DNA of 64,000 nucleotides from Acidimicrobiales bacterium (GCA_029242745.1 JAQWTI010000005.1:1-64000), one strand, 5' to 3'; shown: positions 37,560 through 64,000, numbered from the stretch's first letter. Notes: a model not told the origin generated them from the sequence alone. Numbers and translations are program-made.

Positions 37560-38297
37560 GTGCCTCGAGCGATCAGCTATCACCGCCCCGGCTCTGTGCA
37601 TGATGCCATCAGCCTGCTGGTCAATAACGATCACCTGCCGCTCGCCGGCGGCACGGTACTTAATGCCGACGACGACCCGACTCTCGTCTCTTTTGTAGAC
37701 CTTCAGGAGTGTGGCCTCGCCAACATCGACGAAGTTGGTAGTCGGCTAAGGCTTGGGGCCATGCTCACCCTCCATGACCTGACAACCGATTCCCGCGTCC
37801 CAGTTGGTCTAGCCAACGCTGCTCGGGCTGAACTGCCAAGCACGCTACGTACCTTGGCAACAATTGGTGGAACGGTGGCGACGAGGCACGCAGACAGCGT
37901 CTTACTGGCTGCTCTCCTGGTTTATGAAGCTTGCGTCACGGTGGCCGGCCCCAACGAAGAAAGCGTAGTTCCGTTAGCGGAACTTCTCCATAACGGCGTA
38001 GACAAAGGGCACCTAGTTGTTGCTTTGGATGTTGAAACATCAGGTACTTGCGTCCGGCATGCCACTAGCCGCACTCCAGCTGATACTCCTATCGTTTCGG
38101 CAACAGCGCGTGCTACCGATGAAAGCGCCTGGCTGGCGCTGACCGGTGTCGCCGCCCACCCAGTGCTCGCCAACCCAAAGGACCCCACCACCGACATCGC
38201 GCCAATTGGCGATTTCCGAGGTAGTGCCGAATACCGGCGCAGGTTGTCAAAAATACTTTCATCGAGGGCCTTGGCTGAGGCTAGGAAGTTCGCCTAA
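37560..38297 (+). CDS. ygfM: FAD-binding subunit of the XdhD-type molybdenum hydroxylase (YgfM-like)
   Basis: Predicted flavin subunit that transfers electrons from the XdhD-type hydroxylase. The 245 residues show the FAD_binding_5 start PRAISYHRPGSVHDAISLL, LAGGTVLNAD, and TLATIGGTVATRHADSVLLAALL, which parallels E. coli YgfM (STIGGEIAAR then ESVLLPVLL) more closely than ordinary XdhB/CoxM. GDFRGSAEYRRR is the family ending. The GTG at 37560 with GGGAGG about 6 bases upstream decides the start; an upstream open stretch is not YgfM-like. Its stop overlaps the xdhD ATG, so the two are coupled. Confidence 0.85.
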   Translation: MPRAISYHRPGSVHDAISLLVNNDHLPLAGGTVLNADDDPTLVSFVDLQECGLANIDEVGSRLRLGAMLTLHDLTTDSRVPVGLANAARAELPSTLRTLATIGGTVATRHADSVLLAALLVYEACVTVAGPNEESVVPLAELLHNGVDKGHLVVALDVETSGTCVRHATSRTPADTPIVSATARATDESAWLALTGVAAHPVLANPKDPTTDIAPIGDFRGSAEYRRRLSKILSSRALAEARKFA

Positions 38298-41218
38298 TGA
38301 AGATCACCCTCGAACTCAACGAGACAAGCCGGACTATTGACTGTGCCGTCCATGAAAGCCTCCTCACTGTCCTCCGACGGGAGGGGATGGCCAGCGTGCG
38401 CTTTGGCTCAAATTCTGGAGAGACCGGTGCCGGAGCTGTACTTCTCGACGGGAAATTAGCAAGTTCTGAAGTCGTTCTCGCCGCTCAGGCCAACGGCCAC
38501 GCTGTCACTACTGTCGAGTCGCTTAACGTCGACGAGCGCCTCCACCCCATCCAAGCTGCCTTCGCTGCCACAGGAGCGATGCAGTCTGGTTACTCGGTCG
38601 GTGCCATGGTTCTCGGCACCCTCGCTCTCCTCAGAACAGACCCAGACCCCAGTGAGAACACCATCCGGGACATGCTCTCGGGAATCCTTGACCGCGAGAC
38701 GGCGTATGTAAAACCAGTAGCGGCAGTCCAGCAGGCTGCAGCAGTGCTTCGAGGCGAGGAGGCTGAACCGTTCCGCCCCTTAATGGTCGCTCCAATAACC
38801 GACGGCATACATCCAGTTGATCACGATCCTGATGATCCCCCACCTACCGGTTCGCCAGCTGTCCCGAGAGTCGTCCCGTCTCGAGATGTCCCTACCACCA
38901 CCGTCGTGGGCCATCCCGAAGTCAAGGTTGATGCTCTTCGACTGGTCAAGGGCAACCCGGCGTTTACTGATGACTTTGATATGCGCGGCCTGCTGTACGC
39001 CAAAGTACTGCTCAGCCCACACGCTCACGCCCGAATCATCTCCATAGACGATTCTGCAGCGCGTGCACTGCCCGGGGTGCACGCTGTGATCCACCACGAA
39101 AATGTGCCTAGGATCAAATACGCCTCGGGAGGCCAGTCTTACCCAAACCCCAGACCCTACGATCAGGTCTCTTTTGATAACAAGGTCCGTCACGTCGGCG
39201 ACAGAGTAGCGGCAGTGGCTGCCGACACAGTTGAGATCGCGCAGGAAGCATGCTCGCTGATTGAAGTTACCTGGGAAGTACTCCCGGCCGTATTCGATGA
39301 GTTGGAGGCGCTATCGGGCGATGCTCCAGTTATTCATGACGAAACCGACACGATTGACATCGCTGACCCGTCACGCAATCTGGTGCATCACATAGTGGCT
39401 GAACGCGGCGACGTTGACGCCGCCCTGTCTGCAGCCGACCACTACTACGAGCAGACGTTCCGGGTGCACCAAGTGCAGCAGTGCCCTATCGAGCCTCACA
39501 TCTCCGTGGCATGGTTGGACTCTGACGAACGCCTTGTGGTGCGAACCGCTACCCAAGTGCCATTCCATACGCGCCGGATGCTGGCACCCCTCGTGGGGCG
39601 TGAAATCAAAGATATACGGATTATCAAACCCCGAATCGGTGGTGGCTTCGGCGCCAAGCAAGAAATGCTGCTTGAAGACATTGTTGCTCATCTGGCTATC
39701 GCTACACGCCGGCCAGTTCGACTGGAACTAACTCGCGAAGAGGAGTTCATTGCCAGTCGGACCCGGCACCCGCAAACAATGACCTATCGGACTGGTGTCA
39801 ATGGAGACGGCACCTTGGTGGCCCAAGAGTTGCAGTTAATTGGAAATACTGGACCATACGGAACTCACGGATACACAGTCCAGAGCGTTTCAGGTCTGCG
39901 CGGACTTACTTCATACAACGCCCCCAACAAACGCTTCGACTGTGAAGTCGCCTACACCAACATCCCAGTACCCGGCGCCTACCGCGGTTACGGAGCCCCT
40001 CAAGCACTCTTTGGCTTGGAATGTCACATGGAAGACATTGCTGCCGACCTTGGATTTGATCCGATTGAGTTTCGGCGTCAGAACTGGGCCAAGACCGGTG
40101 ACGAGTTAACTATCGCTCCTCATCTTGGTGAGCGGGCTGTCGTAGATGGGGAACTTGACCAGTACCCGGTTGTTGGGTCTGACGGCATTGAAGAGTGCGT
40201 AGCCCAAGGGTCGAGAGCAATCGGTTGGCACAGACGCTACGACAGATCTTGGCGAGAACCTGCTGGCTCTCGCCACATCCGGCGCGGGATCGGTTACGCC
40301 CATGCCATGCACGGGACATCCATTCCGTATTTAGATATGGGTGGCTGTTCAATCAAGTTAAATGACGACGGGTCGTTCAACATGCTGGTCGGTGCGACCG
40401 ACCTAGGAACCGGGGCCGACACGGTGCTTGGCCAGATTGCCGCCGAAGTTCTCGGAGTTCCCCTCGACGACATCCGGGTTTACTCTTCGGACACTGATAT
40501 GACTCCGTTCGATACTGGAGCTTACGCTTCAAGCACAACTTACATATCAGGCACAGCAGCAATGAAGGCTGCTGAGGTAGTTCGCAAACGACTTAAAGAG
40601 CGCGCCGCCATGCTCCTTGAGGTACCGATTCCCTGCTCCATTGAGCTCAGAGACCGGCGAGCTTACGCTCCAGATGGCAGATCGGTCAGCATGGAAGAGA
40701 TCGCCCTGGACTCACTTCACCTCAACGAACACGAACAGATCATGGGCACCGGATCACACGTCTCACCAGAATGTCCGCCGCCCTTCGGCGCCACCTTTGT
40801 GGAGATTGAACTTGATCTAGAGACCGGCCAGGTAGAGGTCAAGCAGATGGTGATGGCAGTGGACTGTGGCGTCGCCATTAATCCAGTGACAGCCAGCGGC
40901 CAAGTCGAAGGTGGAATGCTCCAGGCCCTTGGCTACGCCCATTGCGAAGAGTTTGCTCTTGACGAGAACGGTCGGATGCTTAATGCGGCATTCGGGCCCT
41001 ACTGGATCTACAGAGCAGACGAGATGCCCCGGACTGACGTCTTTCTGGTGCAGACAATGGAAGACAGTGGACCTTTCGGCGCCAAAGCGGTGGCCGAGAT
41101 CCCCAAAGATGGCTTGGCCCCAGCTCTCCGCAACGCAATCGTAAATGCCACCGGTGTCCGGATCGACCAGTTGCCGTTCACTCCAGAACGGGTGTTTAAC
41201 GCCCTTCAGAAGAGCTGA
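38297..41218 (+). CDS. xdhD: XdhD-type molybdopterin hydroxylase, putative selenium-dependent purine/hypoxanthine hydroxylase
   Basis: Large molybdenum hydroxylase, 973 residues. The N-terminal ~165 residues have the CoxS/XdhC-like [2Fe-2S] fold, but the expected cluster Cys are gone (RFGSNSGETGAGAVLLDGK, MQSGYSVGA, GILDRETAY). E. coli XdhD shows the same loss (its VVQSGYN parallels MQSGYS), which points to XdhD rather than standard xanthine dehydrogenase. The Mo domain is intact: QQCPIEPHISVAW, RIGGGFGAKQ, GAYRGYGAPQALFG, and the C-terminal DSGPFGAKAVAEIPKDG containing the candidate catalytic Glu. The downstream yqeB/yqeC genes imply the labile selenium cofactor. Substrate is probably a purine (xanthine or hypoxanthine), an inference from the family and neighbours. 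The E. coli partner YgfK is not in the window. Confidence 0.88.
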   Translation: MKITLELNETSRTIDCAVHESLLTVLRREGMASVRFGSNSGETGAGAVLLDGKLASSEVVLAAQANGHAVTTVESLNVDERLHPIQAAFAATGAMQSGYSVGAMVLGTLALLRTDPDPSENTIRDMLSGILDRETAYVKPVAAVQQAAAVLRGEEAEPFRPLMVAPITDGIHPVDHDPDDPPPTGSPAVPRVVPSRDVPTTTVVGHPEVKVDALRLVKGNPAFTDDFDMRGLLYAKVLLSPHAHARIISIDDSAARALPGVHAVIHHENVPRIKYASGGQSYPNPRPYDQVSFDNKVRHVGDRVAAVAADTVEIAQEACSLIEVTWEVLPAVFDELEALSGDAPVIHDETDTIDIADPSRNLVHHIVAERGDVDAALSAADHYYEQTFRVHQVQQCPIEPHISVAWLDSDERLVVRTATQVPFHTRRMLAPLVGREIKDIRIIKPRIGGGFGAKQEMLLEDIVAHLAIATRRPVRLELTREEEFIASRTRHPQTMTYRTGVNGDGTLVAQELQLIGNTGPYGTHGYTVQSVSGLRGLTSYNAPNKRFDCEVAYTNIPVPGAYRGYGAPQALFGLECHMEDIAADLGFDPIEFRRQNWAKTGDELTIAPHLGERAVVDGELDQYPVVGSDGIEECVAQGSRAIGWHRRYDRSWREPAGSRHIRRGIGYAHAMHGTSIPYLDMGGCSIKLNDDGSFNMLVGATDLGTGADTVLGQIAAEVLGVPLDDIRVYSSDTDMTPFDTGAYASSTTYISGTAAMKAAEVVRKRLKERAAMLLEVPIPCSIELRDRRAYAPDGRSVSMEEIALDSLHLNEHEQIMGTGSHVSPECPPPFGATFVEIELDLETGQVEVKQMVMAVDCGVAINPVTASGQVEGGMLQALGYAHCEEFALDENGRMLNAAFGPYWIYRADEMPRTDVFLVQTMEDSGPFGAKAVAEIPKDGLAPALRNAIVNATGVRIDQLPFTPERVFNALQKS

Positions 41219-41226
41219 CTGCGCCG

Positions 41227-42588
41227 ATGGGCTTATCGCCTGTAGACCCCGCTGTCGGGATAATCCTCTGCCCCGATTGGCTACTAGCCGATGCTGAGAC
41301 AGAGCCAATTCAAGCTGGTGCTGTACGGATCGTCGACAACACGGTCGATGCCGTCGGTCTTGGCAGCGCCCTCATTGCCCGCCACCCCGAAGACGACGTA
41401 ATAGACCTTCCAGACCGGATCATCCTTCCGGGTTTCGTGAACGCCCATGTCCACATGTACGGACTACTAGCCCACGGCATTCCCCTTGATGCTGCCCCAA
41501 AGGGATTCTGGTCATTCCTCAAAGATTTTTGGTGGCCGAAAGTCGAAGACCGCCTCGATCACGAGATGGTGGCTGCTGCCGCCGACTGGGCCTGCACTGA
41601 GATGCTCCGCTCAGGAACCACAACGTTTCTCGACATTTTGGAGGCACCAAATACATTGCCCGAGGGCTTAGAGGCACAGGCCGGGGCGGTAGAGCGATCC
41701 GGACTTCGAGGGATTCTGAGTTTTGAGTGCACCGAGCGATCCGGAGCAGCGGTGGCTGCTGCTGGATTAAAAGAGAACGTTCGCTTTATCGAAACGTGTC
41801 GACATGTAAGGGGCAACAAAACCACGTCCCTGCTCTCAGGCTTAATTAGCATTCATACCCTTTTCACTTGCTCAGATGACTTCATTCATGAGGTGTTCAA
41901 CCAGGCCTTAGATCTCAACGTGTTGCTCCATGCCCACTGCAACGAAGGAATCCATGAGGGCGAGTGGTGCGAAGCGAACTACGGACATCGCACCCTTGAA
42001 CACTATGAACATTTGGGAGTGGCAGGACCTAACTTCTTGGCTTCACAGGTAGTCCATCTTTCTGCCACAGAACAGAGGATATTGAGTGACCGCAATGTGC
42101 GCTGCAGCCATATGCCAATGGCTAATGCTGAGGTTGGAGGCGGCGTCGCCCCTATCCCAGAACTACGAGGCGCGGGCGTCACGGTGGGCCTGGGCTCGGA
42201 CGGCTACGTCAACGATCTCTACGAGGTTGCACGTAGTGCGTTTCTGATCCACAAAGCCCGACTCCAAGACCCGGGCGTCATGGATGCTCACCAAGTGCTG
42301 GCAATGGCCACCACCGGAGGTTCGGAGGCACTCGGCCTTGAGAGGGTGGGGCGCCTAGCGCCTGGGTGGTCGGCTGATCTTCAGGTGATAGATAGCCGGT
42401 TCCCCACACCTACCACCACGGCCAACCTTGCGGAACAAGTAGTTTTGTTCCGCAATGGCCAACACGTGGAATCCGTGATGGTGGCCGGAAAATGGCGTGT
42501 CCGTAACGGCGAACTGGTAACGGGTGATCCTGATGCACAACGAGCTCACCTCCAACAACAAGCGCTGCGCCTTTGGAGCGCAGCATGA
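41227..42588 (+). CDS. ssnA: SsnA-like amidohydrolase of the selenium-hydroxylase cluster
   Basis: Metal-dependent amidohydrolase, 453 residues, resembling SsnA, which is encoded beside xdhD/ygfM in E. coli and in purine-degrading clusters of anaerobes. Seen: metal motif PGFVNAHVHMYGLLAHG, the SsnA-like AAPKGFWSFLKDFWWPK, HCNEGIHEGEW (HxxE intact), GGGVAPIPELRGAGVTVGLGSDGYVNDLYEVA with the catalytic Asp, and an HKARLQDP segment. In this superfamily the chemistry is deamination or ring-amide hydrolysis of a heterocycle; the substrate is not fixed. The ATG at 41227 is 8 bases after the xdhD stop. Confidence 0.78.
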   Translation: MGLSPVDPAVGIILCPDWLLADAETEPIQAGAVRIVDNTVDAVGLGSALIARHPEDDVIDLPDRIILPGFVNAHVHMYGLLAHGIPLDAAPKGFWSFLKDFWWPKVEDRLDHEMVAAAADWACTEMLRSGTTTFLDILEAPNTLPEGLEAQAGAVERSGLRGILSFECTERSGAAVAAAGLKENVRFIETCRHVRGNKTTSLLSGLISIHTLFTCSDDFIHEVFNQALDLNVLLHAHCNEGIHEGEWCEANYGHRTLEHYEHLGVAGPNFLASQVVHLSATEQRILSDRNVRCSHMPMANAEVGGGVAPIPELRGAGVTVGLGSDGYVNDLYEVARSAFLIHKARLQDPGVMDAHQVLAMATTGGSEALGLERVGRLAPGWSADLQVIDSRFPTPTTTANLAEQVVLFRNGQHVESVMVAGKWRVRNGELVTGDPDAQRAHLQQQALRLWSAA

Positions 42589-43442
42589 GCCTTACATTGG
42601 GCACTCCCGGCAACTCAGGTCAGCAACTCCGACCAGTATCCACCGGTGCGGCGGTTGACTCCCGCATCTTTGACACCCTTCGAGGTCTGGTCGCGGAAGG
42701 CCGTTCAGTGGTGCTGGCGACTGTCATCTCCACTTCACGGTCAGTCCCTCGGCGGGCTGGTGCCAAAATGTTGATCGTTGACGACGGTCGGCAGATTGGC
42801 ACGGTGGGTGGCGGTGAGATGGAAGCCAGAATGGCCAATGAGGCCATTGGTTGCCTGACCGACGGCCAATCCCGACTTGTCGACTACCGGCTTGTCGACC
42901 CAAGCTCCGGAGACCCCGGAGTTTGTGGCGGGGACGTCACAATTTACCTGGAGCCCTATATGCCCCCTTCGACCATCTTTGTTATCGGCTGTGGTCACGT
43001 CGGCAAAGCCGTTGTCGAATTGGCTTCTTGGCTGGGCTTCCATGTGGTGGCAAGCGATGACCGTTCCGACATCGCTCAGGGATTAGCGGAAGAACTACCT
43101 GAGAATTCAGCAGTAGACGTCCGTCCAGGTCCGCTATCCGAGGTGTTGAATAACCTTCCGCTAGGGCCCCGAGATCACGCGGTAGTAGTCACCCGCAACG
43201 TACAAGTTGATGTGGCCAATCTCCCGCTCCTTCTGGCTACCAACGTTGGGAGAGTGGGCGTCATGGGCAGTATTCGACGCTGGGATACCACTCGGAATGC
43301 TCTACTTGACCTCGGCGTGACCGAGATGGATCTGGAACGAATTGTCTCTCCAATTGGAGTGGAGATAGGGGCTGAAACCCCCGAGGAGATTGCCCTGTCG
43401 ATTCTTGCGCAAGTAGTTGGACTTCGACAGACCCCTAATTGA
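42585..43442 (+). CDS. xdhC: XdhC/CoxI family molybdenum hydroxylase accessory protein
   Basis: Accessory protein that delivers and protects the molybdenum cofactor for hydroxylases. The 285 residues from ATG 42585 show the XdhC_CoxI N-terminal domain (RSVVLATVISTSRSVPRRAGAKM, GTVGGGEMEARM, GVCGGDVTIYLEP) and the C-terminal Rossmann domain (FVIGCGHVGKAVVELASWLGF). The start overlaps the ssnA stop by 4 bases (ATGA). Position between ssnA and yqeB fits maturation of the XdhD enzyme encoded just upstream. Confidence 0.9.
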   Translation: MSLTLGTPGNSGQQLRPVSTGAAVDSRIFDTLRGLVAEGRSVVLATVISTSRSVPRRAGAKMLIVDDGRQIGTVGGGEMEARMANEAIGCLTDGQSRLVDYRLVDPSSGDPGVCGGDVTIYLEPYMPPSTIFVIGCGHVGKAVVELASWLGFHVVASDDRSDIAQGLAEELPENSAVDVRPGPLSEVLNNLPLGPRDHAVVVTRNVQVDVANLPLLLATNVGRVGVMGSIRRWDTTRNALLDLGVTEMDLERIVSPIGVEIGAETPEEIALSILAQVVGLRQTPN

Positions 43443-43454
43443 GGTGAACGTGCA

Positions 43455-44273: not shown

Positions 44274-44274
44274 C

Positions 44275-45012
44275 TTGCATCCCCTCGCCCCAGCACATGT
44301 TGCCGACCTCCTGAACGGCCCGGGGCGGATCACTGCTCTCGTGGGCGGTGGTGGAAAGACCACCCTGCTGCATGCCCTCGGCACCCACCTTGGTTCAAGG
44401 GTTGTCCTCACCACCACCACTCAGATGGCTATCCACGAAGTCGGTAATGCTCGACTACTCGTCGGACCGTCACCTGAAGAAGTGGCTGCCGCCGTGGTAG
44501 ATGAAAACCAGCCGATTCTGGTTTGGGATCGCATCGATAACCTGAGCCCAAACCAGCCCAAGGCTTTCGGGGTGAAGCCGTCTATCCCCTCCGACTGGTT
44601 GAAATTCGTCGACCATGTAGTAGTCGAAGCTGACGGCTCAAGGGGTCGCCCAGCCAAAGCACCGGCCCCCCACGAGCCAGAGTTACCTACCGGACCGGTT
44701 GACGTAGTGGCTGTCATCGGTGCCGATGCCCTAGACCGGGTAATCGCCGACCAGTGCCACCGTCCCCTCCGGCTCGCTGCAGTTGTTGGTTGTTCCCCGT
44801 ATGAGCGCCTCACCCCGGAACGGGCTGCAGTGCTACTAACTCATCACAACGGTGCCCGTCGTGGGGTACCAGCGGACGGAGGGTTTGCTATCGCAGTAAC
44901 AAAGGTCAACGACATTGTGCGACCACTAATTGAACACTTAGTAGACGCAATAGACGAACGGTCTCCCACCACCTCTATTCACTTGTTCGATGACCGGGAT
45001 AGATTTCACTGA
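44275..45012 (+). CDS. yqeC: Selenium cofactor biosynthesis protein YqeC
   Basis: P-loop protein of the YqeC family, the second marker of the selenium-dependent molybdenum hydroxylase trait. The 245 residues contain Walker A ITALVGGGGKTTLLHALG, VVLTTTTQM, VVVEADGSRGRPAKAPAPHEPELP (EADGSRG...KAPAxHEP is the family signature) and VIGADALDRVIADQCHRP. TTG start one base after the yqeB stop. Together with yqeB and xdhC it implies a dedicated maturation set for XdhD. A selD gene supplying selenophosphate would be expected elsewhere in the genome. Confidence 0.92.
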   Translation: MHPLAPAHVADLLNGPGRITALVGGGGKTTLLHALGTHLGSRVVLTTTTQMAIHEVGNARLLVGPSPEEVAAAVVDENQPILVWDRIDNLSPNQPKAFGVKPSIPSDWLKFVDHVVVEADGSRGRPAKAPAPHEPELPTGPVDVVAVIGADALDRVIADQCHRPLRLAAVVGCSPYERLTPERAAVLLTHHNGARRGVPADGGFAIAVTKVNDIVRPLIEHLVDAIDERSPTTSIHLFDDRDRFH

Positions 45013-45992
45013 TGTCCGACCGATACCTCCGAGGCAGCGTCAACCTGATTCCTGAGGCACCGGTAGCTTCTATAAGGGATCTCGCTGTCGAAGCCGAACG
45101 ACTCGGCTTCCAGCGCTGCTGGGTATATGACGAAGGGCTAGCAACACGTGAGTTGTACGTAACCCTGACTGCGATTGTCGGGGCCACCGAGAAGTTGGAA
45201 GTCGGACCTGGAATCACCAACCCCTATACCAGACACCCAGCCCAAACTGCTTCGGCCATTGCCACTCTCGACGAGTTGTCAGGTGGGCGAGCCTTCATGG
45301 GCTTAGGAGCAGGCGGAAGTTTGACGCTTGATCCGTTAGCCCTGGAACGAACACGGCCATTAGAGACTGTTGGAAGAACTATCGAAGCCTGCCGTGCCCT
45401 CTTCGCCGGTGAGGTGGTCAACATGGATGCGCCAACGTTCTCGCTGCGGAAGGCGCAATTGGGCTGGGCTCGACCTGACCTACCTATCTGGCTAGCCGGG
45501 CGCGGACCGCGGATGCTAGATCTTGGTGGAGCATCCGCCGACGGCGTCATGCTTGACTTCATCTATAAGCCCTCACTCGGTGATTACGTAGACCGTGTAC
45601 GAGCGGGGGCCGCCCGCACCGGCAATGAGGTGAGCATCTGTTATTCGACCATGGTGGTCACCGACGACGCTGCCCTGGAAGCGGTGCGACCCCACATGAC
45701 CTATCGGCTGATTGACTCCCCAGAACCAGTTCGAGCCGCCCTCGGCATAACCGATGCCAACGTGGCCTCAATCCGCGCCGCCTTAGCAGATGGTCTGGTT
45801 GCAGCCGCCCATTACGTGCCAGACGAGTGGGTTCTGCCGTTCGTAATCGCTGGATCTGTCACCGAATGTGCAGCTGAACTAGAGCGTCTCGCTGACCAGC
45901 ACGGTCTAGATGAATTCCTGCTTCCGATCTTCGACGTCAAGGACGGAGCCTCGCTGCTGGAGGTGACAGCGCGCGTGCTGGACGGGCCATGA
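45012..45992 (+). CDS. LLM-class F420-dependent oxidoreductase (second copy)
   Basis: Luciferase-like monooxygenase family protein, 326 residues: SIRDLAVEAERLGFQRCWVYDEG, ALTAIVGATEKLEVGPGITNPYTRHP-type segment, GGRAFMGLGAGGS, LPIWLAGRGPRMLDLGGASADGVMLDF. It belongs to the methylene-H4MPT-reductase-like F420 group (inference). The ATG overlaps the yqeC stop, so it is translationally linked to the selenium-cofactor genes. Two LLM genes bracketing this cluster suggest an electron or substrate link, but no substrate can be named. Confidence 0.87.
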   Translation: MSDRYLRGSVNLIPEAPVASIRDLAVEAERLGFQRCWVYDEGLATRELYVTLTAIVGATEKLEVGPGITNPYTRHPAQTASAIATLDELSGGRAFMGLGAGGSLTLDPLALERTRPLETVGRTIEACRALFAGEVVNMDAPTFSLRKAQLGWARPDLPIWLAGRGPRMLDLGGASADGVMLDFIYKPSLGDYVDRVRAGAARTGNEVSICYSTMVVTDDAALEAVRPHMTYRLIDSPEPVRAALGITDANVASIRAALADGLVAAAHYVPDEWVLPFVIAGSVTECAAELERLADQHGLDEFLLPIFDVKDGASLLEVTARVLDGP

Positions 45993-46696
45993 GCCCCCTT
46001 TTCAACGAACCAGTACTGACACACTCTGCGACCGAGGTGCTCGCTGCCGCTGGAGTATCTGTTCCAGTTGCTGGACCCATCCCTCTCCTGGTGGATCCTC
46101 CTCACCCAATTGTGAGGGACGGAAAAGACGAACCCCTAGTACTGCTAGACCATCCCCGCATTATGAATCTGGAGAACTACCACCGTGCAGGCTGGTGTCA
46201 TGCCCTTCCCGGCTGCCGGTTGAGGGAGTCGGTAGCTGAACGCTTAGGTCGAGTAGCCAACAGCCTTCCTGCCCGTTGGGGGTTGGCCGTCTTTGATGGA
46301 TGGCGACCTCATGCCCTCCAGGTCGAGTTGCACAGCGCCGCCTACGCCGACCCCTGTCTTCCACCTGGTTTCTTTGCTGAACCAGATGAGAGGTCTTCGA
46401 CGCCGTCACCTCATCTAACCGGCGGCTCCGTAGACCTCACTCTTTCCCTCGATGAGATCCCGCTTGCTCCGGGGACTGGCTTCGATGACCTCACGCCCCG
46501 TGCCTATACGAGAGCGCTGGAAGATGAGCCAGGCGCCAATCGCGATATTCGACGGTTGCTGTATCACGCCATGGTGGCAGAAGGATTTGTGGTGTTCGAT
46601 GGCGAATGGTGGCACTTTGAATACGGCACCCGCCGTTGGTCGGCCATCACTGGTCGACCACCTAAGTTTGGGTCAGCAATAAATACAGAGAACTAA
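45989..46696 (+). CDS. D-alanyl-D-alanine dipeptidase family protein (VanX/DdpX type)
   Basis: Zinc dipeptidase family protein, 235 residues, with metal motifs PSPHLTGGSVDLTLSL (SxHxxGxAxD-type His and Asp) and EWWHFEYGTRRW (Glu and His). The N-terminal PLVLLDHPRIMNLENYH is consistent. It would cleave D-Ala-D-Ala or a related dipeptide; as the last gene of the selenium-hydroxylase operon (ATGA overlap with the LLM gene) its role there is unclear. It may be a DdpX-like scavenging enzyme. Confidence 0.84.
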   Translation: MSPLFNEPVLTHSATEVLAAAGVSVPVAGPIPLLVDPPHPIVRDGKDEPLVLLDHPRIMNLENYHRAGWCHALPGCRLRESVAERLGRVANSLPARWGLAVFDGWRPHALQVELHSAAYADPCLPPGFFAEPDERSSTPSPHLTGGSVDLTLSLDEIPLAPGTGFDDLTPRAYTRALEDEPGANRDIRRLLYHAMVAEGFVVFDGEWWHFEYGTRRWSAITGRPPKFGSAINTEN

Positions 46697-46738
46697 CCTT
46701 CGACCAACTACTGCTAATGCACCAGAAGGATCCCTGGT

Positions 46739-48326: not shown

Positions 48327-48707
48327 CAAAAATCTTCTCAACTAATCAGGGTGATTACCTACCGTGGGAAGAAGCAGTTTCACCGGCCTATTTTCTAAGA
48401 ATAGTTTTTTATTACGAAGCGATCATTGAATTATCGACACAAGTTAGTGAGGATTGATAGCGATACAAAACCACCACAATTCGGAAGTATGAAGTAAATA
48501 TGACTAGAACTCAAGAATTTAGAGGTGATCTATCTCATCATTGTACGTTCTAAATTTTTTGTCAATCTACCCTCGGAGTTCAAAGTTGGCTAGCGACCTA
48601 GTCGTTGTTGAAGTCGCGTTATTTCAAGCCGAGACAACCCCCAAGCAACTCCATTTGGCTCTCCGCCAAGGTCACCCCCATTCCGGTAGAACTGGCATAC
48701 TTAAATC
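48327..48707. promoter_or_regulatory. AT-rich divergent intergenic region
   Basis: 381 bases between the minus-strand amidohydrolase and plus-strand guaD, the longest gene-free stretch in the window and clearly AT-rich. On the minus strand TTGACA (complement of 48560-48565) is followed 17 bases later by AATGAT, a plausible promoter that would leave a leader of about 200 bases. An imperfect inverted repeat (ctatt / aatag) lies at about 48389-48405. I could not match the leader to a known purine or other riboswitch. No open frame here looks coding. Confidence 0.45.
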
Positions 48708-52202: not shown

Positions 52203-52217
52203 TCGATGAACTGATGG

Positions 52218-55441: not shown

Positions 55442-55461
55442 TCCGGCCAAGACCCTCTGGT

Positions 55462-57060: not shown

Positions 57061-57701
57061 TAGGTCAATATCCCCGCCTCGAGCACGCCTGCCATTAAAG
57101 TGAATCTTGGCAGACGACGAAATCGATCAGTCCATCGCCGAATGGCTGGATAAGAAACACGATTCACGCCTCCCTCTTCTGACAAAATAACATCAGGAAA
57201 CAGAACTAGGTCAGCAAGTGTTGGCGCTTCAGCCGAACAGACCCAATTTAGATTTCTCTGCTCCTGAAACCAAAGGTGCTCATCAAGCGTCCTAAATAGC
57301 CGATGTGCCCCTGCACGGCAGGCGTCGATATCGAATTCGTAGCCGAGACTGTCATGCAATCGGGCAGCAGACGCAGTGTTCGTTGTGCCCTCTGCAAACA
57401 TCATCCACTGGGCAGTTTCACCCAGAAGTGAGGGCTGTTCAACTGGGTACCAACTGTTCAAAGTATCATGTTTAGTAGCAAGGTAAATAAGAATGGCGTT
57501 GGCATCACGAAGAACATAACCATCGTCATCGATCACAGGAATATGGCCTAGCGGGTTCACTTCCTTGAACCATTCAGATTTATGTTCCCATCCGGGAAAG
57601 AAATCAATCGGATGCAACTGGTGCGATATTGATAAAAAATTAAGTAATAACCGTACCTTGTAGCAGTTGACAGATAACTCATAATCGTAAAGGGTCACCA
57701 T
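57060..57701 (-). CDS. Glutathione S-transferase-like protein (NdmE-like)
   Basis: A 213-residue GST-fold protein: MVTLYDYELSVNCYKVRLLLNFL (thioredoxin-fold start), NPLGHIPVIDDDGYVLRDANAILIYLA, and C-terminal helices with AEAPTLADLVLFPDVIL. It sits 10 bases after the NdmD-like reductase gene. In Pseudomonas methylxanthine degraders, NdmE is a GST-like protein needed structurally for the NdmC-NdmD N7-demethylase complex; this gene holds the same place in the operon. Actinobacteria usually use mycothiol rather than glutathione, so a structural role is more likely than glutathione transfer (inference). Confidence 0.82.
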   Translation of the reverse strand: MVTLYDYELSVNCYKVRLLLNFLSISHQLHPIDFFPGWEHKSEWFKEVNPLGHIPVIDDDGYVLRDANAILIYLATKHDTLNSWYPVEQPSLLGETAQWMMFAEGTTNTASAARLHDSLGYEFDIDACRAGAHRLFRTLDEHLWFQEQRNLNWVCSAEAPTLADLVLFPDVILSEEGGVNRVSYPAIRRWTDRFRRLPRFTLMAGVLEAGILT

Positions 57702-57711
57702 TAGCTGGTCC

Positions 57712-59457
57712 TTAAATATCTAGAACGAGTCGGTCTGAGTGAGAGCGCGACACGCAGGTCATGATTCTGGTGCCTGCCTCATGCTCAGTTTCATTGAGAT
57801 AGACATCTTGGTGGTTCGGCTCCCCTTCCAATAACCCCACCTCACAAGTACCGCAAGCCCCTTGCTCACATGATGATGCGAGGGCCACCCCGTTCTCGCG
57901 AAGAACGTCAAGAATCGTGCTGCCGCTATCAACAGAGAGAGTCATCCCCGAACGTGCTAGATGGATTTCAAAGGCCGAGAACTCGTCAAGAATTATTTCA
58001 TTCTTGAAGTATTCAAAGTGAACGGCCTCAGGTGGCCACCCCAGACTCATAGCAGTCTCGCGAATCATGCTGATCATCGCAGGAGGCCCACAGGCATAGA
58101 CCTGACTGAGGTGATCGTATGAACCGAGAGTCTCCACTACTCGCTGCTCTGTCTCCGCTGGACTTAATCCCAAATGAGTCTTTAATTGATCTCCGAATTG
58201 GGCGAACCTCTCTTGAAAGGCCAAGTGTTCACTTGACTGCACAAAATAGTGCAAGATAAAACTGAGATCAGTTCGTTCAAGCGCTTGTGCCATTGCCAGT
58301 AGTGGTGTTAACCCAATACCGCCAGCAAATAGAAGGGTCTGCGGAGTATCTCTACGAAGGCGGAAATTGTTGTGAGGGCCTGAGAGCAAAAGCTGGTCAC
58401 CCTCGTGAAGCTCTTCATGGAGGAATTTCGAACCACCTCGCGAATTTTGCTCCAACTTCACCCCAATCTGGTACCGATCTTGCTCTCCAGGCCCATTGAT
58501 CAGCGAATACTGGCGACTTAACCCATTTGGAAGGTGCAGGTCAACATGAGCCCCAGGCTGGAATGTAGGAAGCCCCCCTTCTACCGGGCGGAGTTCGAAA
58601 CCAACAATGTCTATTGCAGTCAGCCACCGCTTACTCACTACGACTTCCATCTCGCTCACTCTTGAGCCAGCGCCCTGTGAAACTTGATGCGCGTGCGTGT
58701 CATCAGTATCTAACCAACGCCCCATATCCACAGAAATACTTGACTCAACTTCTTCGCGAAACTTTGCTAGCTGAGTGTTGAGACTCAGGAGCCAATCCAA
58801 CCGGCTTTCTTTTTTGGGTGCAGGAGTCACCAAGCCATGAATGACTGTCTTTTTGTCATCAAATGGTTGAAGCATGAGATGAACAGAGAACGAACTATTT
58901 GAGGTCCGATATTTGTAGGAATATGGCTCACCTACAGCGGGAGCATATTTATGCTTTTGGACCTGGTCATCGGTACCTTCGCCAAGGTTGAACTCGCAAT
59001 TTTGTAGGTGCTTCTGGACTTCTTCAAGCGGGACATCAAGTGGGAGACTCCGCAGGACTAGTGGCTCATCATCATTGGTCAACTCAACAACCAACTGGTC
59101 GGAACACTGCTCCAGCGCACTCCATACAAACCCGTGGCGTACAAAGGACGGGTAAACCCGATTGCAAATAGTTCGAGCAGGAGAATTGGATGGATGGGCT
59201 GGTATGTAGGTGCACCCTGCGGTCTGATTCGCATAGCGCCACCCGTGATAGGCACACACCAACTCTGCGCCATCGTTTATCCCAACCGAAAGCCGAGACC
59301 CTCGGTGCAGGCAACGATTTTCCCATACATTTACGTAACCATCATCAGCCTGCCAAACAACTAACTCGTGGCCAAACAATTCAGTTTGGAACACATGTCG
59401 TTCCCGAAGATCTTTGATCGATGCGACCGGGTACCACTCAGCGATTCCCTTTGCCAT
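57712..59457 (-). CDS. NdmD-like Rieske oxygenase reductase with extra N-terminal Rieske domain
   Basis: Three-part redox protein of 581 residues. N-terminal Rieske domain: C49-x-H51 in ENRCLHRGSRL and C68-x2-H71 in LVCAYHGWRY. Middle FNR-type flavin/NAD(P)H domain (about 230-480): RQYSLINGPGEQDRYQIGV, LFAGGIGLTPLLAMAQAL. C-terminal plant-type [2Fe-2S] ferredoxin: SSCEQGACGTCEVGLL then MTCVSRS. Ordinary Rieske reductases lack the first domain; the extra Rieske domain and the length are hallmarks of NdmD. The start is ATG 59457, overlapping the oxygenase stop by one base; a TTG just before is less likely. It should pass electrons from NADH to the two oxygenases upstream. Confidence 0.88.
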   Translation of the reverse strand: MAKGIAEWYPVASIKDLRERHVFQTELFGHELVVWQADDGYVNVWENRCLHRGSRLSVGINDGAELVCAYHGWRYANQTAGCTYIPAHPSNSPARTICNRVYPSFVRHGFVWSALEQCSDQLVVELTNDDEPLVLRSLPLDVPLEEVQKHLQNCEFNLGEGTDDQVQKHKYAPAVGEPYSYKYRTSNSSFSVHLMLQPFDDKKTVIHGLVTPAPKKESRLDWLLSLNTQLAKFREEVESSISVDMGRWLDTDDTHAHQVSQGAGSRVSEMEVVVSKRWLTAIDIVGFELRPVEGGLPTFQPGAHVDLHLPNGLSRQYSLINGPGEQDRYQIGVKLEQNSRGGSKFLHEELHEGDQLLLSGPHNNFRLRRDTPQTLLFAGGIGLTPLLAMAQALERTDLSFILHYFVQSSEHLAFQERFAQFGDQLKTHLGLSPAETEQRVVETLGSYDHLSQVYACGPPAMISMIRETAMSLGWPPEAVHFEYFKNEIILDEFSAFEIHLARSGMTLSVDSGSTILDVLRENGVALASSCEQGACGTCEVGLLEGEPNHQDVYLNETEHEAGTRIMTCVSRSHSDRLVLDI

Positions 59458-60386
59458 CAAAAAATCTCACTACAAGGTTCTGAATCTCGCTGAGTGTTAT
59501 CCCGGATTACTCCGTAAGAGATTCCAAGCTCAGTCAACCAACGCCGATACTGGATAGAGGTCTTGTCAGCCGTAATCGGTGTTTCCGCTCTGGACCCCAG
59601 GGGCAATCGTTTTGGAACTTGATTCTCAAGGATTGGCTTGTCTTGGCCAAAAATGATCGCTTGAAATCTCTTGATCGTTGCATCATCATTCGTTTCATCC
59701 AGGAGCGAAAGAAACTGGTGAGCACACGCTCGCACCTCAGTCATCGGCTGAACAAAAATGCCGATGACATCAAATCTTTTTGGATCAACCGGGCTGGTCT
59801 TATAGAGGAGCGGACAGAAGGGGTGAGCTAACCGGTAGGTGTACTTCGTCACCTGACCATCTGTTGCAGAAACTGCGGCTATCGGCTGATAAAACTCGCA
59901 ACCAGTTGCCCATATCTCTCTATCGTCAAAGGTGACCGAATAGTCCTTAACTTCGGTATACGGCTGTTCGCCCAAATATCCCTCGTGGACAAAAGGAAAA
60001 TGGGCAAGATCAAGAAAATTTTCAACTGTGCGGCCAGCAGAGGTATGAACCCGGAAACTACCGCTGTTCTCAGACCAGCGATCCGTTTCATGAAACTCAG
60101 GAATATCGAAAAGCCGTTCTGGCGGTGCCCCCAAACTTGTCCATACAAATCCAAAGGCCTCCCTAACTGGGAGAGAGACCTCTCTACCCTGATTGAACAC
60201 TTGGCCATGCACCATCGGGGCCATGAACTCTTTAATAGAAATTTCTTCGCCCTCTTGCCCTGAAACAACAAGCATCTGCCCGAGCAGTTGGGTACTAACC
60301 GGACCACGTTCCCGAACGTCGGGTATAGCTGCTACCGGATGCCAGAGGTCGAGTAGCGCAGCGTCTTCACATCTGGCAGCAAACAT
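59457..60386 (-). CDS. Rieske-less oxygenase catalytic subunit (NdmC-like N-demethylase)
   Basis: A 309-residue protein with the catalytic domain of a Rieske non-heme iron oxygenase but no Rieske site. The mononuclear iron motif NFLDLAHFPFVH (about 123-134, His129 and His134) is intact, and IFGQDKPILENQ near the C-terminus probably holds the Asp ligand. The N-terminal part (WHPVAAIPDVRERG ... GFVWTSLG) keeps the outline of a Rieske fold, but both the CxH and CxxH ligand pairs are missing. That is the NdmC condition, where the cluster is supplied by the Rieske domain of NdmD. ATG 60386 with GGAGG 6 bases upstream decides the start. It should remove N-methyl groups (N7 in Pseudomonas). Confidence 0.84.
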   Translation of the reverse strand: MFAARCEDAALLDLWHPVAAIPDVRERGPVSTQLLGQMLVVSGQEGEEISIKEFMAPMVHGQVFNQGREVSLPVREAFGFVWTSLGAPPERLFDIPEFHETDRWSENSGSFRVHTSAGRTVENFLDLAHFPFVHEGYLGEQPYTEVKDYSVTFDDREIWATGCEFYQPIAAVSATDGQVTKYTYRLAHPFCPLLYKTSPVDPKRFDVIGIFVQPMTEVRACAHQFLSLLDETNDDATIKRFQAIIFGQDKPILENQVPKRLPLGSRAETPITADKTSIQYRRWLTELGISYGVIRDNTQRDSEPCSEIF

Positions 60387-60439
60387 CCAAGCCTCCAAAC
60401 TGAGCTTTTGAATTTGTATATATGAGATTCATGCTCAAC

Positions 60440-61507
60440 TCAGTTCTCTGGTAACGAGTCAAAGACCCTTGCATGTACGTCCATCTCTGAACGAAGTTTC
60501 TGGAACTGGGCGATGAAATCTCGCTGCATCTTTTTCTTGGAGACTTCATCAAGCCAACTACTCTCAACTGCAGCGATAGATAGGTCTTCGAGGTCATCTA
60601 ACCCGTAGCCAAAAGCATCTTGGACACGAACAAACTCATCAGCAAGATCAATTCTGAACATCTCTGCATTGTCAGAATTAATTGAGACAAGAACCCCATG
60701 TTCTCGCATGCTTGGCACGGGATGCTCCGACAAACTGTCCAAGAGGCCTATCTCTACATTCGAAGTTGGACAGGCAGTCACGGGAATCTGTCGTTCAACA
60801 ACTTCTCTGGTCAAATCCTCATCGTCTAGTAGGTGAAAACCGTGGTCGATGCGCTCAATTCCGAGTTCTCTCACTCCTACAGCGATGTCTGAAACAGGCC
60901 CTTCTTCGCTGAGATGCATGGTGGTCTTAAAGCCGCTTTGACGAGCAAAATTGAAGGGCTCAGCAAAGGCACCAAGATCAATACCAAACTCACCTGCATC
61001 TCCGCCGATTCCGACCAGAACCTCACGATCACAGGTAAGAGCCATTCCAATTAACTCTTGGGCAGAGTCTGCCCCTGAGGGCTTATCAATATCCATAATG
61101 AGCTTGCACTCAATTCCAAAATCTTTACGAGCTTCATTTACCCCCGCCGTCAGGCCCTGCCAGATCGTTTGAAATGCAACACCCCGCCGCAACGCAAAAG
61201 TCGGAGAAAAAAACATCTCTCGATACCGGACGCCTGCAAGATTGGCAAGTTCCAGGGACTCATAGGTCACACGCTCAAAGTCTTCAGAACGAACTAAACA
61301 TCGACAGACAAGTTCGTACACAGCTATAAAGTCCTCTAGACCCTCGTAGACATAGAGGTCAGAAGGATCCGCTACCGGCAGTTGAACTTCGTTATTTTTC
61401 GCCAGACTTGCGAGAGTCGTAGGTCTTGCAGCACCTTCGACGTGGACGTGTAGTTCAACTTTGGGAAGTGCCCGAATGTGGTCTTGGCTTGCTAACTCAG
61501 CCACCAT
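60440..61507 (-). CDS. Adenosine/adenine deaminase family protein
   Basis: Purine deaminase fold of the adenosine deaminase family, 355 residues. Metal and catalytic motifs: KVELHVHVEGA (HxH at 20-22), TTMHLSEEG (His and Glu), RIDHGFHLL and SINSDNAEMF. The last motif usually reads SxDDP; the second Asp is Asn here, so substrate preference may differ. AREMFFSP-type strand (VRYREMFFSPTFALRRG) is typical. It sits between the two Rieske oxygenase genes (9 and 53 bases). It could deaminate adenine, adenosine or an N-methylated adenine derivative (inference). Confidence 0.86.
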   Translation of the reverse strand: MVAELASQDHIRALPKVELHVHVEGAARPTTLASLAKNNEVQLPVADPSDLYVYEGLEDFIAVYELVCRCLVRSEDFERVTYESLELANLAGVRYREMFFSPTFALRRGVAFQTIWQGLTAGVNEARKDFGIECKLIMDIDKPSGADSAQELIGMALTCDREVLVGIGGDAGEFGIDLGAFAEPFNFARQSGFKTTMHLSEEGPVSDIAVGVRELGIERIDHGFHLLDDEDLTREVVERQIPVTACPTSNVEIGLLDSLSEHPVPSMREHGVLVSINSDNAEMFRIDLADEFVRVQDAFGYGLDDLEDLSIAAVESSWLDEVSKKKMQRDFIAQFQKLRSEMDVHARVFDSLPEN

Positions 61508-61516
61508 ATGCGCCTT

Positions 61517-62539
61517 TCACTTGCTCACCGTTTGGACTACATCTATCAATATCCTTCGCATCTCGAGAGTGAGTCGATCTGCCTTCGTGTGAACCTCGTA
61601 GCGTTGATCAAGCGGAATGGCTTTCACGTGGCACCTTTCAAGCAGTGCTTTGTCTTCGGCACCTACCGCCAACTGAAACTTCGTTGCCTCGATTCGTGCA
61701 TCAGCAGTGTCTTCAATATCGTTTCGATAGTTGGTGCAAAAAAGCCGGGTTGTTGAAGCATTGACAGGTTGGTGGGCAAAACTGATCGCCAGTACAGCAC
61801 CCTCATCGGCATAGTCGATGTAAATATAAACATGGTGTGGAGGTGTGAAAACAAAAAGATCATTACGTTCGATCGAAGTGAACTCACCGTCGACACCCAT
61901 CGAATCAGATAAAGCCTTAGTCGTGTGCGAATACTGGACTCGAACAGAATGCTCTGATCGCTCCACTTCGTAATCAGCTACTTGCTCATCATCCGTTACT
62001 CCAAATGTTTCAAGGTGCAGGAAAGGGAAATGGGCAAGATCTAGGAAGTTGTCGGCCATCTGGGCGGCACCTGCATTCCACTCCCAAGGTTCAAGTGGGC
62101 AATTCACAAAATTCGGGTCATTGTGCTCCGGAACCTCTGGAAGCCCGACAAGTGGTGGCTCAGGGGCCAGCCAGACCAAGCCCAGGTGGTCTTGGATGTC
62201 AACAGCCATCTGGCAGTTCGCCCGAGGTGGAATTGGAAGAGAGGGTGACTGTGCTGGGATCCGCACGCACGTGCCATCCATCGCATAGCGGTAACCGTGA
62301 TAGCCGCACTGAAGAGTTCCATCAACGACAGATCCTGCGCTAAGAGAAGCCAATCGGTGTGGACACGTATCTGGAAAAGCAGCCAGTTCACCATTGATGC
62401 GAACCACGCACCAGAACTCACCTAGGAGTTCCACCTGCAGCGGAACCCCCTCCTTCGCCTCCTCTGATCTAGCAACTGGATGCCAGCAATTTCGCAAGGC
62501 TGGGTGCTCGTTATCGAGCCATACCGTTTCTTTCTCCAT
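61517..62539 (-). CDS. Rieske non-heme iron oxygenase (NdmA/NdmB-like N-demethylase)
   Basis: Terminal oxygenase of 340 residues. Rieske site: C59-P-H61 in DTCPHRLASL and C78-x2-H81 in LQCGYHGYRY. Mononuclear iron site: ADNFLDLAHFPFLHLETFG. C-terminal GAEDKALLERC with the candidate Asp ligand. NdmA/NdmB of methylxanthine degraders and other VanA-type N- or O-demethylases share this layout. ATG 62539 is preceded by AGGGGAT about 8 bases upstream; an upstream in-frame start would add 17 residues without such a site. It opens an operon of six genes running to 55462. It would act with the NdmD-like reductase, releasing formaldehyde. Confidence 0.87.
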   Translation of the reverse strand: MEKETVWLDNEHPALRNCWHPVARSEEAKEGVPLQVELLGEFWCVVRINGELAAFPDTCPHRLASLSAGSVVDGTLQCGYHGYRYAMDGTCVRIPAQSPSLPIPPRANCQMAVDIQDHLGLVWLAPEPPLVGLPEVPEHNDPNFVNCPLEPWEWNAGAAQMADNFLDLAHFPFLHLETFGVTDDEQVADYEVERSEHSVRVQYSHTTKALSDSMGVDGEFTSIERNDLFVFTPPHHVYIYIDYADEGAVLAISFAHQPVNASTTRLFCTNYRNDIEDTADARIEATKFQLAVGAEDKALLERCHVKAIPLDQRYEVHTKADRLTLEMRRILIDVVQTVSK

Positions 62540-62728
62540 ATCTAATCCCCTAAGCAATTCGAGTTGATTAAGCGAAGCCGATTTCCTCACACCAATTCCC
62601 GCAGTGCCTCACAGCCCCCGTTGGGTCAAGTCTCCAGGAGTCGGTTTTCTCACCGGACAACTTTCCGTAGTCCACTCCGCTCCAGCGCATGGTCGAACCC
62701 AAACTAAACAACAACCCGTTCATAGCAG

Positions 62729-63187
62729 TCATTCTGATTCCGAGGCTCGTGTAACTTCAACCAATAGATCTGATTCCAGAGCGTCAAGCATCACTCCAAT
62801 TTCAGACAAGTAAGTCTCCGAATCAGACTGCTCCGCTACCCGCTCATCCAGTACATGAATAACTGGCAATCCAAGAGACACTCCAGCCAGCGGACCTGCA
62901 TAACTGGGGTCTCCATTTGTAACCGTTTGAGTCACGATCTCTGTACTGTCACGATCGGGCGTGCCCAAAACAACGACGACATTATCCTCACCATTTTCTT
63001 GAACGGTCTCAAGAATCTTTGTTTGATCATCCAGATCAACAGCTCCAGCAGACGTTCAAACAAAGCACTGGGTAAAGGACACCACTTCTCGTGCACCCGC
63101 CGATCTGGCTATCGCTGCAATGGCCGGCCCAGGAATACCGTCACGCTCACCTATAGCAATAATGCACTTTCCACTCAACTCTGTCAT
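62729..63187 (-). CDS. grdA: Glycine/sarcosine/betaine reductase selenoprotein A, with in-frame TGA for selenocysteine
   Basis: Selenoprotein A of the Grd reductase complex, which carries a carboxymethyl group on selenium. Read through one TGA (complement of 63056-63058), the frame gives 152 residues: it begins MTELSGKCIIAIGERDGIPG, then TQCFVUTSAGAVDLDDQ with Sec at residue 44, and the conserved QTVTNGDPSYAGPLAGVSLG in the second half. The C-F-V-U motif and Sec44 position match clostridial GrdA. Without readthrough only a 79-residue fragment from the next start would be seen. ATG 63187 lies one base after the grdC stop. A candidate SECIS hairpin follows the TGA. The complex makes acetyl phosphate from glycine, or from sarcosine or betaine with other B subunits. 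Confidence 0.93.
63021..63040 (-). other. Candidate bacterial SECIS hairpin of grdA
   Basis: Beginning 16 bases after the TGA, arms GTTGATC and GATCAAAC pair (7 pairs with one bulged A) around a 5-base loop TGGAT. Size and distance from the Sec codon suit the bacterial SECIS element read by SelB. Bacterial SECIS sequences vary, so this is a structural match only. Confidence 0.55.
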
Positions 63188-63188
63188 G

Positions 63189-64000
63189 TCAACCCTTCTG
63201 ACCTTTGTTTGTTTTGGCATTTCGAGTCAGGACAAACGACATCCCATCAGACATCTCCGTCATTCGCCCCAAAAACAGGCTTCCCTTGGCATAAAACATT
63301 GTGTGATTCGCGTTGCCACTAGTCAGGCTGCGATATGCATGCCCAAGAAAAGGAATAGCTGATGCGATGTGTCCTTGCGTCGGCGAAAATCCAGGCATCC
63401 CATAGCGGTCTACAAAATCAGACATTTCGTCTCTAGTAATTTCTTTCCGCTGAACAGCAAGGCTCGCGAGCACCCGGTAATTGGTACGTGGAGTATTTCC
63501 ACTTCCTTGTGGTTCGGTGATATCAGGGTCATGGAGTTCGGTTGCATAGCGATCAACATCCAAAATTCCCAAACCCTTTCTGATCAGAGGTTCGACAATT
63601 AATGCTTCGGCAATGGCCTGGGGTGACGAGCCGGCTGCAACTGTGTGACGACCGATCGACTCAAGATCAATTATTGGGCTAAAGCCATCATCCTCTCCGA
63701 TGAGAACCGCGACTGAGGCTAGAACGTCTTCGAGAATGGGCATGTTATTTCGCAAATGCCCTTGGAACTTCATTCCTAATTTGGCCAGTGATCCTCCACC
63801 AATGACCGCAACGTTCTTATAGAGACCGCTAGTAACTAGTGCTGCCCCTACGACTATCGCGTGATTTGGTGCACAACAGAAAGCTTTGATATCTGAACCT
63901 GTGGCGTTTAAACATCCAGAGTTTTCAGCCACCGCTTTCGCAAGATTTCCTCCACCCCGCTGGTATCGGTCTCCAATAGCCTCTTCACCACATCCAATCA
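63189..64000 (-). CDS. grdC: Glycine/sarcosine/betaine reductase component C, beta subunit (N-terminus beyond window)
   Basis: C-terminal about 270 residues of GrdC, which releases acetyl phosphate from the acetyl-selenium intermediate. In frame from the window edge: CGEEAIGDRYQRGGGNLAKA, NATGSDIKAFCCAPNHAIVV, ITEPQGSGNTPRTNYRVLA, YGMPGFSPTQGHIASAIPFLGHA and KGSLFLGRMTEMSDGMSFVL, all characteristic of GrdC. A GTG at 63932 is internal, not the start, because conserved sequence continues upstream of it. Full GrdC is about 510 residues, so roughly half is missing off the edge. The stop lies one base before grdA. Whether grdD and the B component follow upstream cannot be seen. Confidence 0.92.
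   Translation of the reverse strand, partial: IGCGEEAIGDRYQRGGGNLAKAVAENSGCLNATGSDIKAFCCAPNHAIVVGAALVTSGLYKNVAVIGGGSLAKLGMKFQGHLRNNMPILEDVLASVAVLIGEDDGFSPIIDLESIGRHTVAAGSSPQAIAEALIVEPLIRKGLGILDVDRYATELHDPDITEPQGSGNTPRTNYRVLASLAVQRKEITRDEMSDFVDRYGMPGFSPTQGHIASAIPFLGHAYRSLTSGNANHTMFYAKGSLFLGRMTEMSDGMSFVLTRNAKTNKGQKG

Follow-up and report, generated by a model that had tools for sequence, protein, structure and literature searches.

The NdmCDE system of the caffeine pathway of Pseudomonas putida removes the N7-methyl group of methylxanthines. NdmC is an oxygenase without a Rieske domain, NdmD is a reductase that carries an additional Rieske domain, and NdmE is a glutathione S-transferase (GST)-like protein, an architecture described as unique to NdmCDE (PMC4408171). 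The related NdmA and NdmB demethylases and the xanthine hydroxylase HpxD have a Rieske plus VanA_C architecture. The glycine/sarcosine/betaine reductases (Grd) of clostridia are selenoprotein systems, of a kind normally seen in anaerobes, with a GrdA containing CxxU, a GrdB whose classical motif is UxxCxxC (PMC13188914), and, in the glycine and sarcosine types, a GrdE/GrdG subunit in which a cysteine forms the pyruvoyl group. In the reductive uric acid pathway of Escherichia coli, XdhD reduces urate to yanthine, after which YgfK and SsnA reduce and open the ring, while Chloroflexota have an F420-type luciferase-family protein instead of YgfK (PMC12507026). Here, we compare these systems with a locus of a marine actinobacterium (Acidimicrobiales bacterium, GCA_029242745.1) in which an NdmCDE set lies in one apparent operon with an atypical Grd, next to a separate XdhD unit.

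Gene content of the locus

We analyzed bases 1 to 64000 (64 kb; referred to here as the window) of a 182,872-base contig (JAQWTI010000005.1; C24) of a draft genome (2.44 Mb; 55 contigs; 94.7% complete), using stretches of this contig and targeted searches. Among the genomes compared, the closest named relative was Candidatus Microthrix sp. UBA2974 (same genus; record DEAU01000012; sister genome G285), placing the genome in the Acidimicrobiia. The left 36 kb of the window is ordinary chromosome.

An earlier note, made from the sequence alone, listed within positions 37560 to 64000 a guanine deaminase, an adenosine-deaminase-like protein, three other amidohydrolases, a nucleoside-type importer, an Ndm-like set, XdhD with YqeB and YqeC, and GrdA with GrdC. 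Searches with Pfam and NCBIfam profiles recovered every one of these genes (Table 1), and the observation is therefore confirmed. Its span was slightly wrong, as the Ndm/Grd cluster begins at ~46.9 kb rather than 37.5 kb and continues to contig base ~74650. The Grd part is also much larger than GrdA plus GrdC. The arrangement is far beyond chance, because the Ndm-Grd gene order recurs in two other assemblies, namely, G285 and record PBOU01000033 (an assembly titled Planctomycetaceae). The profile PF00848 did not detect the Rieske proteins of the window and was used only as a source of outgroups.

Table 1. Predicted genes of the XDH unit and of the Ndm/Grd unit within the window, with supporting evidence
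Position	Strand	Assignment	Evidence
36098-37402	+	LLM-class (luciferase-like, F420-type) oxidoreductase LLM1, first gene of the XDH unit; true start probably downstream	PF00296, 1e-56; kept next to the XDH unit in relatives
37437-38297	+	FAD subunit, XdhB/YgfM-like	PF00941; 27% to E. coli YgfM
38297-41218	+	XdhD-like fused [2Fe-2S] + Mo subunit	MoCoBD_1/2 and Fer2_2; 38% to E. coli XdhD over 927 aligned columns
41227-42588	+	SsnA-like amidohydrolase	Best NCBIfam SsnA, 262 bits (cut-off 444); 28% to E. coli SsnA
42573-43442	+	XdhC-type maturation factor	PF13478 and PF02625
43455-44273	+	YqeB, selenium-dependent Mo-hydroxylase maturation protein	TIGR03309, 280.9 bits (cut-off 220); 46% to E. coli YqeB
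44275-45012	+	YqeC, selenium cofactor protein	TIGR03172, 132.4 bits (cut-off 73); 30% to E. coli YqeC
45012-45992	+	LLM-class F420-type oxidoreductase LLM2	PF00296, 9.6e-48
45989-46696	+	M15 D-Ala-D-Ala dipeptidase-like, end of the XDH unit	PF01427; conserved in relatives' XDH units
46884-48341	-	Amidohydrolase (8-oxoguanine/deoxyadenosine deaminase-like), first gene of the Ndm/Grd unit	PF01979; syntenic in G285
48708-50027	+	Guanine deaminase	TIGR02967, 357 bits (just under the cut-off, 375.4); 75% to the G285 copy
50155-53882	-	Nucleoside-type ABC importer: two permeases and a double ATPase	PF02653 (BPD_transp_2) twice and PF00005
54040-55416	+	Amidohydrolase (purine deaminase-like)	PF01979
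55462-57060	-	ABC permease with two BPD_transp_1 domains	PF00528
57060-57701	-	NdmE-like glutathione S-transferase	PF13417; 55% to NdmE of the P. putida caffeine cluster
57712-59460	-	NdmD-like reductase: Rieske (8-91) + FNR (NAD-binding, 378-467) + plant-type ferredoxin (Fer2, 500-572)	Pfam; Rieske C50-H and Fer2 motifs; 36% to NdmD over 593 aligned positions
59457-60398	-	NdmC-like oxygenase lacking the Rieske domain	PF19112 (VanA_C) only; no CxH/CxxH motif; DLAHFPFVH iron site (D-x-x-H-x4-H); 42% to NdmC; NdmC clade
60440-61507	-	Adenosine deaminase family protein	TIGR01430, 262.7 bits (cut-off 216.55)
61517-62590	-	Rieske oxygenase of the NdmA/NdmB/HpxD neighborhood, subgroup unresolved	PF00355 + PF19112; 34% to HpxD, 29% to NdmA
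62729-63187	-	GrdA selenoprotein; in-frame TGA at 63056-63058 (CFVU, in CFVUTSAG)	NF040748, 162.3 bits (cut-off 130)
63189-64000	-	GrdC (component C beta), continues to contig base 64646; GrdB, GrdG-like, BKACE, two Amidohydro_2, GcvT-like, ABC ATPase, and BMP/NMT1 binding protein follow to 74651	NF040746, 597.7 bits (cut-off 450)

The XDH unit and the Ndm/Grd unit are separate

The earlier note proposed a single pathway in which methylated purines are taken up, deaminated, N-demethylated to xanthine, and then ring hydroxylated by XdhD. Our results support this interpretation only in part: the NdmC/D/E identity, the purine context, and the proximity of oxygenase genes to Grd selenoproteins are supported, whereas one pathway joining Ndm to the XdhD unit is not. 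The plus-strand XDH unit (36.1 to 46.7 kb) is followed by a second unit (46.9 to 74.7 kb), in which an amidohydrolase, the guanine deaminase, the importer, and another amidohydrolase precede a long minus-strand run. At the border (~46.8 kb), the G+C content decreases from 0.55-0.59 to 0.48-0.53, and the third-position G+C decreases from 0.57 to 0.48 (21 against 18 genes; Mann-Whitney P = 2e-7; because genes of one island are not independent, this value is descriptive). Housekeeping genes resemble the XDH unit in this respect (0.57-0.59 for both). In G285, the second unit is kept almost gene for gene from the binding protein to the guanine deaminase, with an extra sulfatase gene between ndmE and the permease, while the XDH unit is on another contig (C11) with other neighbors. 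Three relatives (G247, G181, and G266) have the complete XDH unit and a fourth (G227) has the part that its contig holds, all without any full-length NdmC.

We next examined co-occurrence. Of 298 genomes sampled from the order, 19 have a full-length NdmC, 24 have YqeB, and 5 have both (expected, 1.5). YqeB is thus present in 5 of 19 NdmC genomes against 19 of 279 others (Fisher P = 0.012), but the five represent only three independent lineages, and at the genus level P = 0.05. None of 80 NdmC loci from named genomes contains YqeB within 10 kb. The adjacency in the window is therefore real but is not a conserved linkage.

The NdmCDE set and its gene neighborhoods

For comparison, we used a P. 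putida plasmid with a complete caffeine-type cluster (frmA, ndmA, ndmB, permease, ndmC, ndmD, ndmE, and fghA, named by position and family). The three window proteins occur in the same order as their counterparts and show the same domain split, with a dedicated GST-like protein next to ndmD (Table 1). The locus differs from the P. putida cluster in being actinobacterial and in having ABC importers, purine deaminases, and Grd selenoproteins instead of an NCS2 permease and frmA/fghA. NdmC passed the test of Rieske phylogeny, which had been named beforehand as a possible refutation. In a 70-row tree, the NdmC proteins, including the caffeine ones, form one 43-row clade (support, 92/100) that is separated from five of the six aromatic-type oxygenases of the same genome by a 100/100 branch; the sixth joins the NdmAB side on a long branch, and its placement is not trusted. 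NdmC of the window trio is a deep branch of its own rather than the sister branch of caffeine NdmC, and its regiospecificity may differ. The AlphaFold model of NdmC (mean pLDDT, 80) matched SxtT/GxtA and then NdmA and NdmB in the PDB, as expected for a Rieske oxygenase of this branch. SxtT/GxtA, the closest solved fold, was rejected as functional kin because no NdmC structure was among those searched and because sequence similarity to true NdmC is far higher (234 against 103 bits, from different programs).

To investigate the likely role of NdmC, we compared its neighborhoods across GTDB genomes, in which over 550 NdmC-type loci exist. Among the best 80 loci, 64 are at least 13 kb long; of these, 56 carry NdmD, 56 carry NdmE, 52 carry a nucleoside-type importer, 9 carry an adenosine-deaminase-like gene, and 7 carry a guanine deaminase (40% identity or more), while 17 control loci have none of these. 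The importer and deaminases recur next to NdmC in many phyla. In Mesorhizobium sp. L-8-3, Pseudooceanicola antarcticus, and Xinfangfangia sp., the guanine deaminase starts 61, 1, and 20 bases after ndmE, respectively, and in Granulosicoccaceae it ends the run ndmCDE-importer. These proteins pass the curated guanine deaminase cut-off, except the Ferrithrix-labelled one (360 of 375 bits). However, guanine deaminase adjacency is seen in only 9 of the 80 loci, and the guanine deaminase of the window is about 9 kb from ndmC and on the other strand. Rhizobium etli has NdmC, a GST, an 8-oxoguanine-deaminase-like protein, and the importer in one run. R. etli and a kombucha Komagataeibacter have NdmC next to a free-standing Rieske protein and a GST, a possible intermediate of the split. 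Tandem pairs of NdmC paralogues occur in Rhizobiales, with one copy of each pair in a branch nearer to caffeine NdmC. In one genus of the order (genomes G281 and G262, the latter corresponding to a record of the sponge-associated SB06xx series), there are up to seven NdmC/NdmA-like matches per genome. The window genome itself has a second NdmCDE locus (contig C3, 14001-34000) with four adenosine-deaminase-family genes, an importer, a GcvT-like gene, and a further Rieske oxygenase.

The second oxygenase of the window (61517-62590) is not a clear NdmA/B. It is 27 to 34% identical to NdmA/NdmB and HpxD, with the closest value for Pantoea HpxD, which is annotated as a molybdenum-independent xanthine hydroxylase. 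The tree places it outside the NdmA/B clade (100/100) and weakly on the HpxD side (80/64). An assignment to NdmA/B was therefore rejected, and the sequence is compatible with either an N-demethylase or a xanthine hydroxylase.

An atypical selenocysteine-containing Grd

The selenium link is stronger than the earlier note stated. GrdA, GrdC, a Sec-containing GrdB, and a GrdG/E/I-type subunit follow each other in the same ~19-kb run as Ndm, in the same order in the three assemblies at about 60 to 90% identity, and the gaps in the run are short. They are followed by BKACE, two Amidohydro_2 proteins, a GcvT-like protein closest to the folate domain of TMAO demethylase, an ABC ATPase, and a binding protein that fuses BMP (nucleoside-type) and NMT1 domains, an unusual combination (positions 12549-14651 of the stretch L007 of this contig). 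Sec decoding is supported by tRNA-Sec with anticodon TCA, SelB, and SelD, the last of which (C11:14443-15387) has one in-frame TGA and is probably itself a selenoprotein. Predicted SECIS hairpins after the TGA codons were not better than those of shuffled sequence (z = -1.16 and -0.38).

This Grd is atypical. The GrdB motif is UGTGTRSG (UxxGxxS) instead of UGTCTRCG in the three genomes, and the substrate-specific B subunits scored below the NCBIfam cut-offs (GrdF, 377 of 800 bits; GrdB, 363 of 602; GrdH, 342 of 775; GrdG, 217 of 780). The GrdG-type protein lacks the pyruvoyl-forming cysteine of the glycine and sarcosine types (GNC replaced by GWN). GrdD (component C alpha) was not found in any of five genomes searched, with only a hit of E = 0.006 in the window genome and none in G285. 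An assignment to sarcosine reductase was rejected by cut-offs, motif, and tree. About 18 other genomes of the order have full-length or fragmentary GrdB; the 13 placed in the tree form another group with UxxGxxC, while the window trio forms its own deep branch. Many other members of the order have stand-alone GrdG-GrdB-GrdC-GrdA clusters with UxxGxxC, and GrdD was not found in the three of these genomes searched. Within the family, GrdB of the window kind was found in 2 of 48 genomes, indicating that the unit is accessory. The proteins are therefore Grd-like, with an unidentified substrate and possibly a different product. Plasmid searches with the BKACE and Amidohydro_2 proteins gave no hint of a substrate.

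The XDH unit resembles reductive urate degradation

XdhD, SsnA, YqeB, and YqeC align to the E. coli reductive uricolysis locus (Table 1). In the alignment with E. coli XdhD, the position compared with E606 fell in a poorly aligned loop. A YgfK, UacX, or F420 luciferase-family reductase beside XdhD and SsnA is a feature of the reductive pathway, and two LLM genes flank the window unit, in which no YgfK hit was found. The genome has CofD for F420. No homologue of HyuA, YgeW/UacY, YgeY, or YgeX was found in the stretches scanned. A second unit at contig positions 98982-109990 has an 8-oxoguanine-deaminase-like protein, an LLM protein, a closer SsnA (32%), further XDH subunits, and an M20 carbamoylase (104993-106294); the two units are neighbors in G285, G247, G181, and G266 but are split apart here. 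OHCU decarboxylase of the oxidative urate route was not found in six genomes, although this enzyme alone does not exclude other oxidative urate routes and the genome is 94.7% complete. A reductive, F420-linked degradation of urate or xanthine is therefore more likely than the ring hydroxylation proposed in the earlier note. This remains a lead, because the SsnA-like protein of the first unit is far under its family cut-off and the downstream genes are not beside it.

Discussion

We interpret the 46.9- to 74.7-kb stretch, with moderate confidence, as an accessory catabolic unit for a methylated purine. In this view, two ABC importers would bring the base or nucleoside in, and the guanine deaminase, the adenosine-deaminase-like protein, and two further amidohydrolases would deaminate it. 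The split Rieske enzyme would then remove the N7-methyl group with O2 and NADH, with NdmC as the iron site, NdmD carrying the Rieske cluster and the reductase, and NdmE holding them together. Formaldehyde would be released and probably taken up by the GcvT-like protein onto tetrahydrofolate. A 7-methylpurine substrate, at best guess 7-methylguanine or 7-methylxanthine, is well supported but unproven; the likeliest is 7-methylguanine, as its deamination to 7-methylxanthine, followed by the NdmCDE reaction to xanthine, is the simplest common explanation of the neighborhoods. The second oxygenase would either remove another methyl group or hydroxylate xanthine like HpxD. The Grd-BKACE-Amidohydro_2 part, which has no obvious place in a purine pathway, would act later on a small, as yet unidentified carboxymethyl-type fragment. 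The XDH unit next door is separately inherited and probably degrades the resulting xanthine or urate reductively, with F420 as the electron carrier. The analysis itself establishes the genes, motifs, synteny, phylogeny, and Sec machinery, whereas the substrates, the reactions (including any demethylation of 7-methylxanthine), and the order of the pathway are inferred in the absence of biochemical data.

Among the alternatives, it is possible but doubtful that the second oxygenase and NdmD form an HpxD-like, molybdenum-free xanthine hydroxylase that feeds urate into the XdhD/SsnA/F420 reductive unit, so that the units meet at urate. The higher identity to HpxD and the weak grouping with it favor this reading, but support is weak, the branch is long, and the co-occurrence of the units is loose. 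Two further readings are unlikely, to a similar degree. In the first, Ndm and the XdhD unit work in series and end in selenium-dependent ring hydroxylation. The two units are on one contig, 10.4 kb apart (from the end of the XDH unit to ndmE), and co-occur above chance by genome, but their composition, their separation in the sister genome, the presence of the XDH unit in family members without NdmC, the absence of YqeB from the 80 NdmC loci, and the urate reductase activity of E. coli XdhD (PMC12507026) argue against it. In the second, the operon degrades a non-purine N-methylated compound (a betaine-like or N-heterocyclic marine osmolyte), with Grd cleaving a C-N bond as betaine reductase does and the Rieske proteins removing methyl groups. 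The Grd alpha-type subunit lacks the pyruvoyl cysteine, as the betaine type does, and BKACE and a TMAO-demethylase-like GcvT protein lie in the run. However, NdmC loci across phyla sit with nucleoside-type importers and purine deaminases, an adenosine deaminase gene lies between the two oxygenase genes, and no BCCT transporter was seen. A chimeric assembly or chance neighbors, suggested by the draft state and the composition shift, is largely refuted by the same gene order over about 27 kb in G285 and over the part held in PBOU01000033.

A further possibility, which we offer tentatively, is that an O2-dependent purine N-demethylase and a new GrdD-less class of Sec-containing Grd reductase work in one catabolic route in an oxygen-using marine actinobacterium, with Grd reductively cleaving a carboxymethyl-type fragment of a methylated purine. 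In the open-access literature searched, we found no report of Grd in Acidimicrobiia or of 7-methylguanine demethylation by NdmCDE. The operon puts oxygen-using and selenol-using enzymes into one apparent transcription unit, while selenoproteins are described as rarely kept by aerobes (PMC13188914), and it exposes a Grd class without GrdD whose product cannot simply be assumed to be acetyl phosphate. NdmCDE homologues have been listed as of unknown function outside caffeine degraders (PMC4408171). Marine organisms contain many methylated purines (PMC5793054), and 7-methylguanine from RNA is an obvious natural source of methylated bases. The recurrent link of NdmCDE to importers and guanine deaminase gives these homologues a testable general role in the recycling of such bases.
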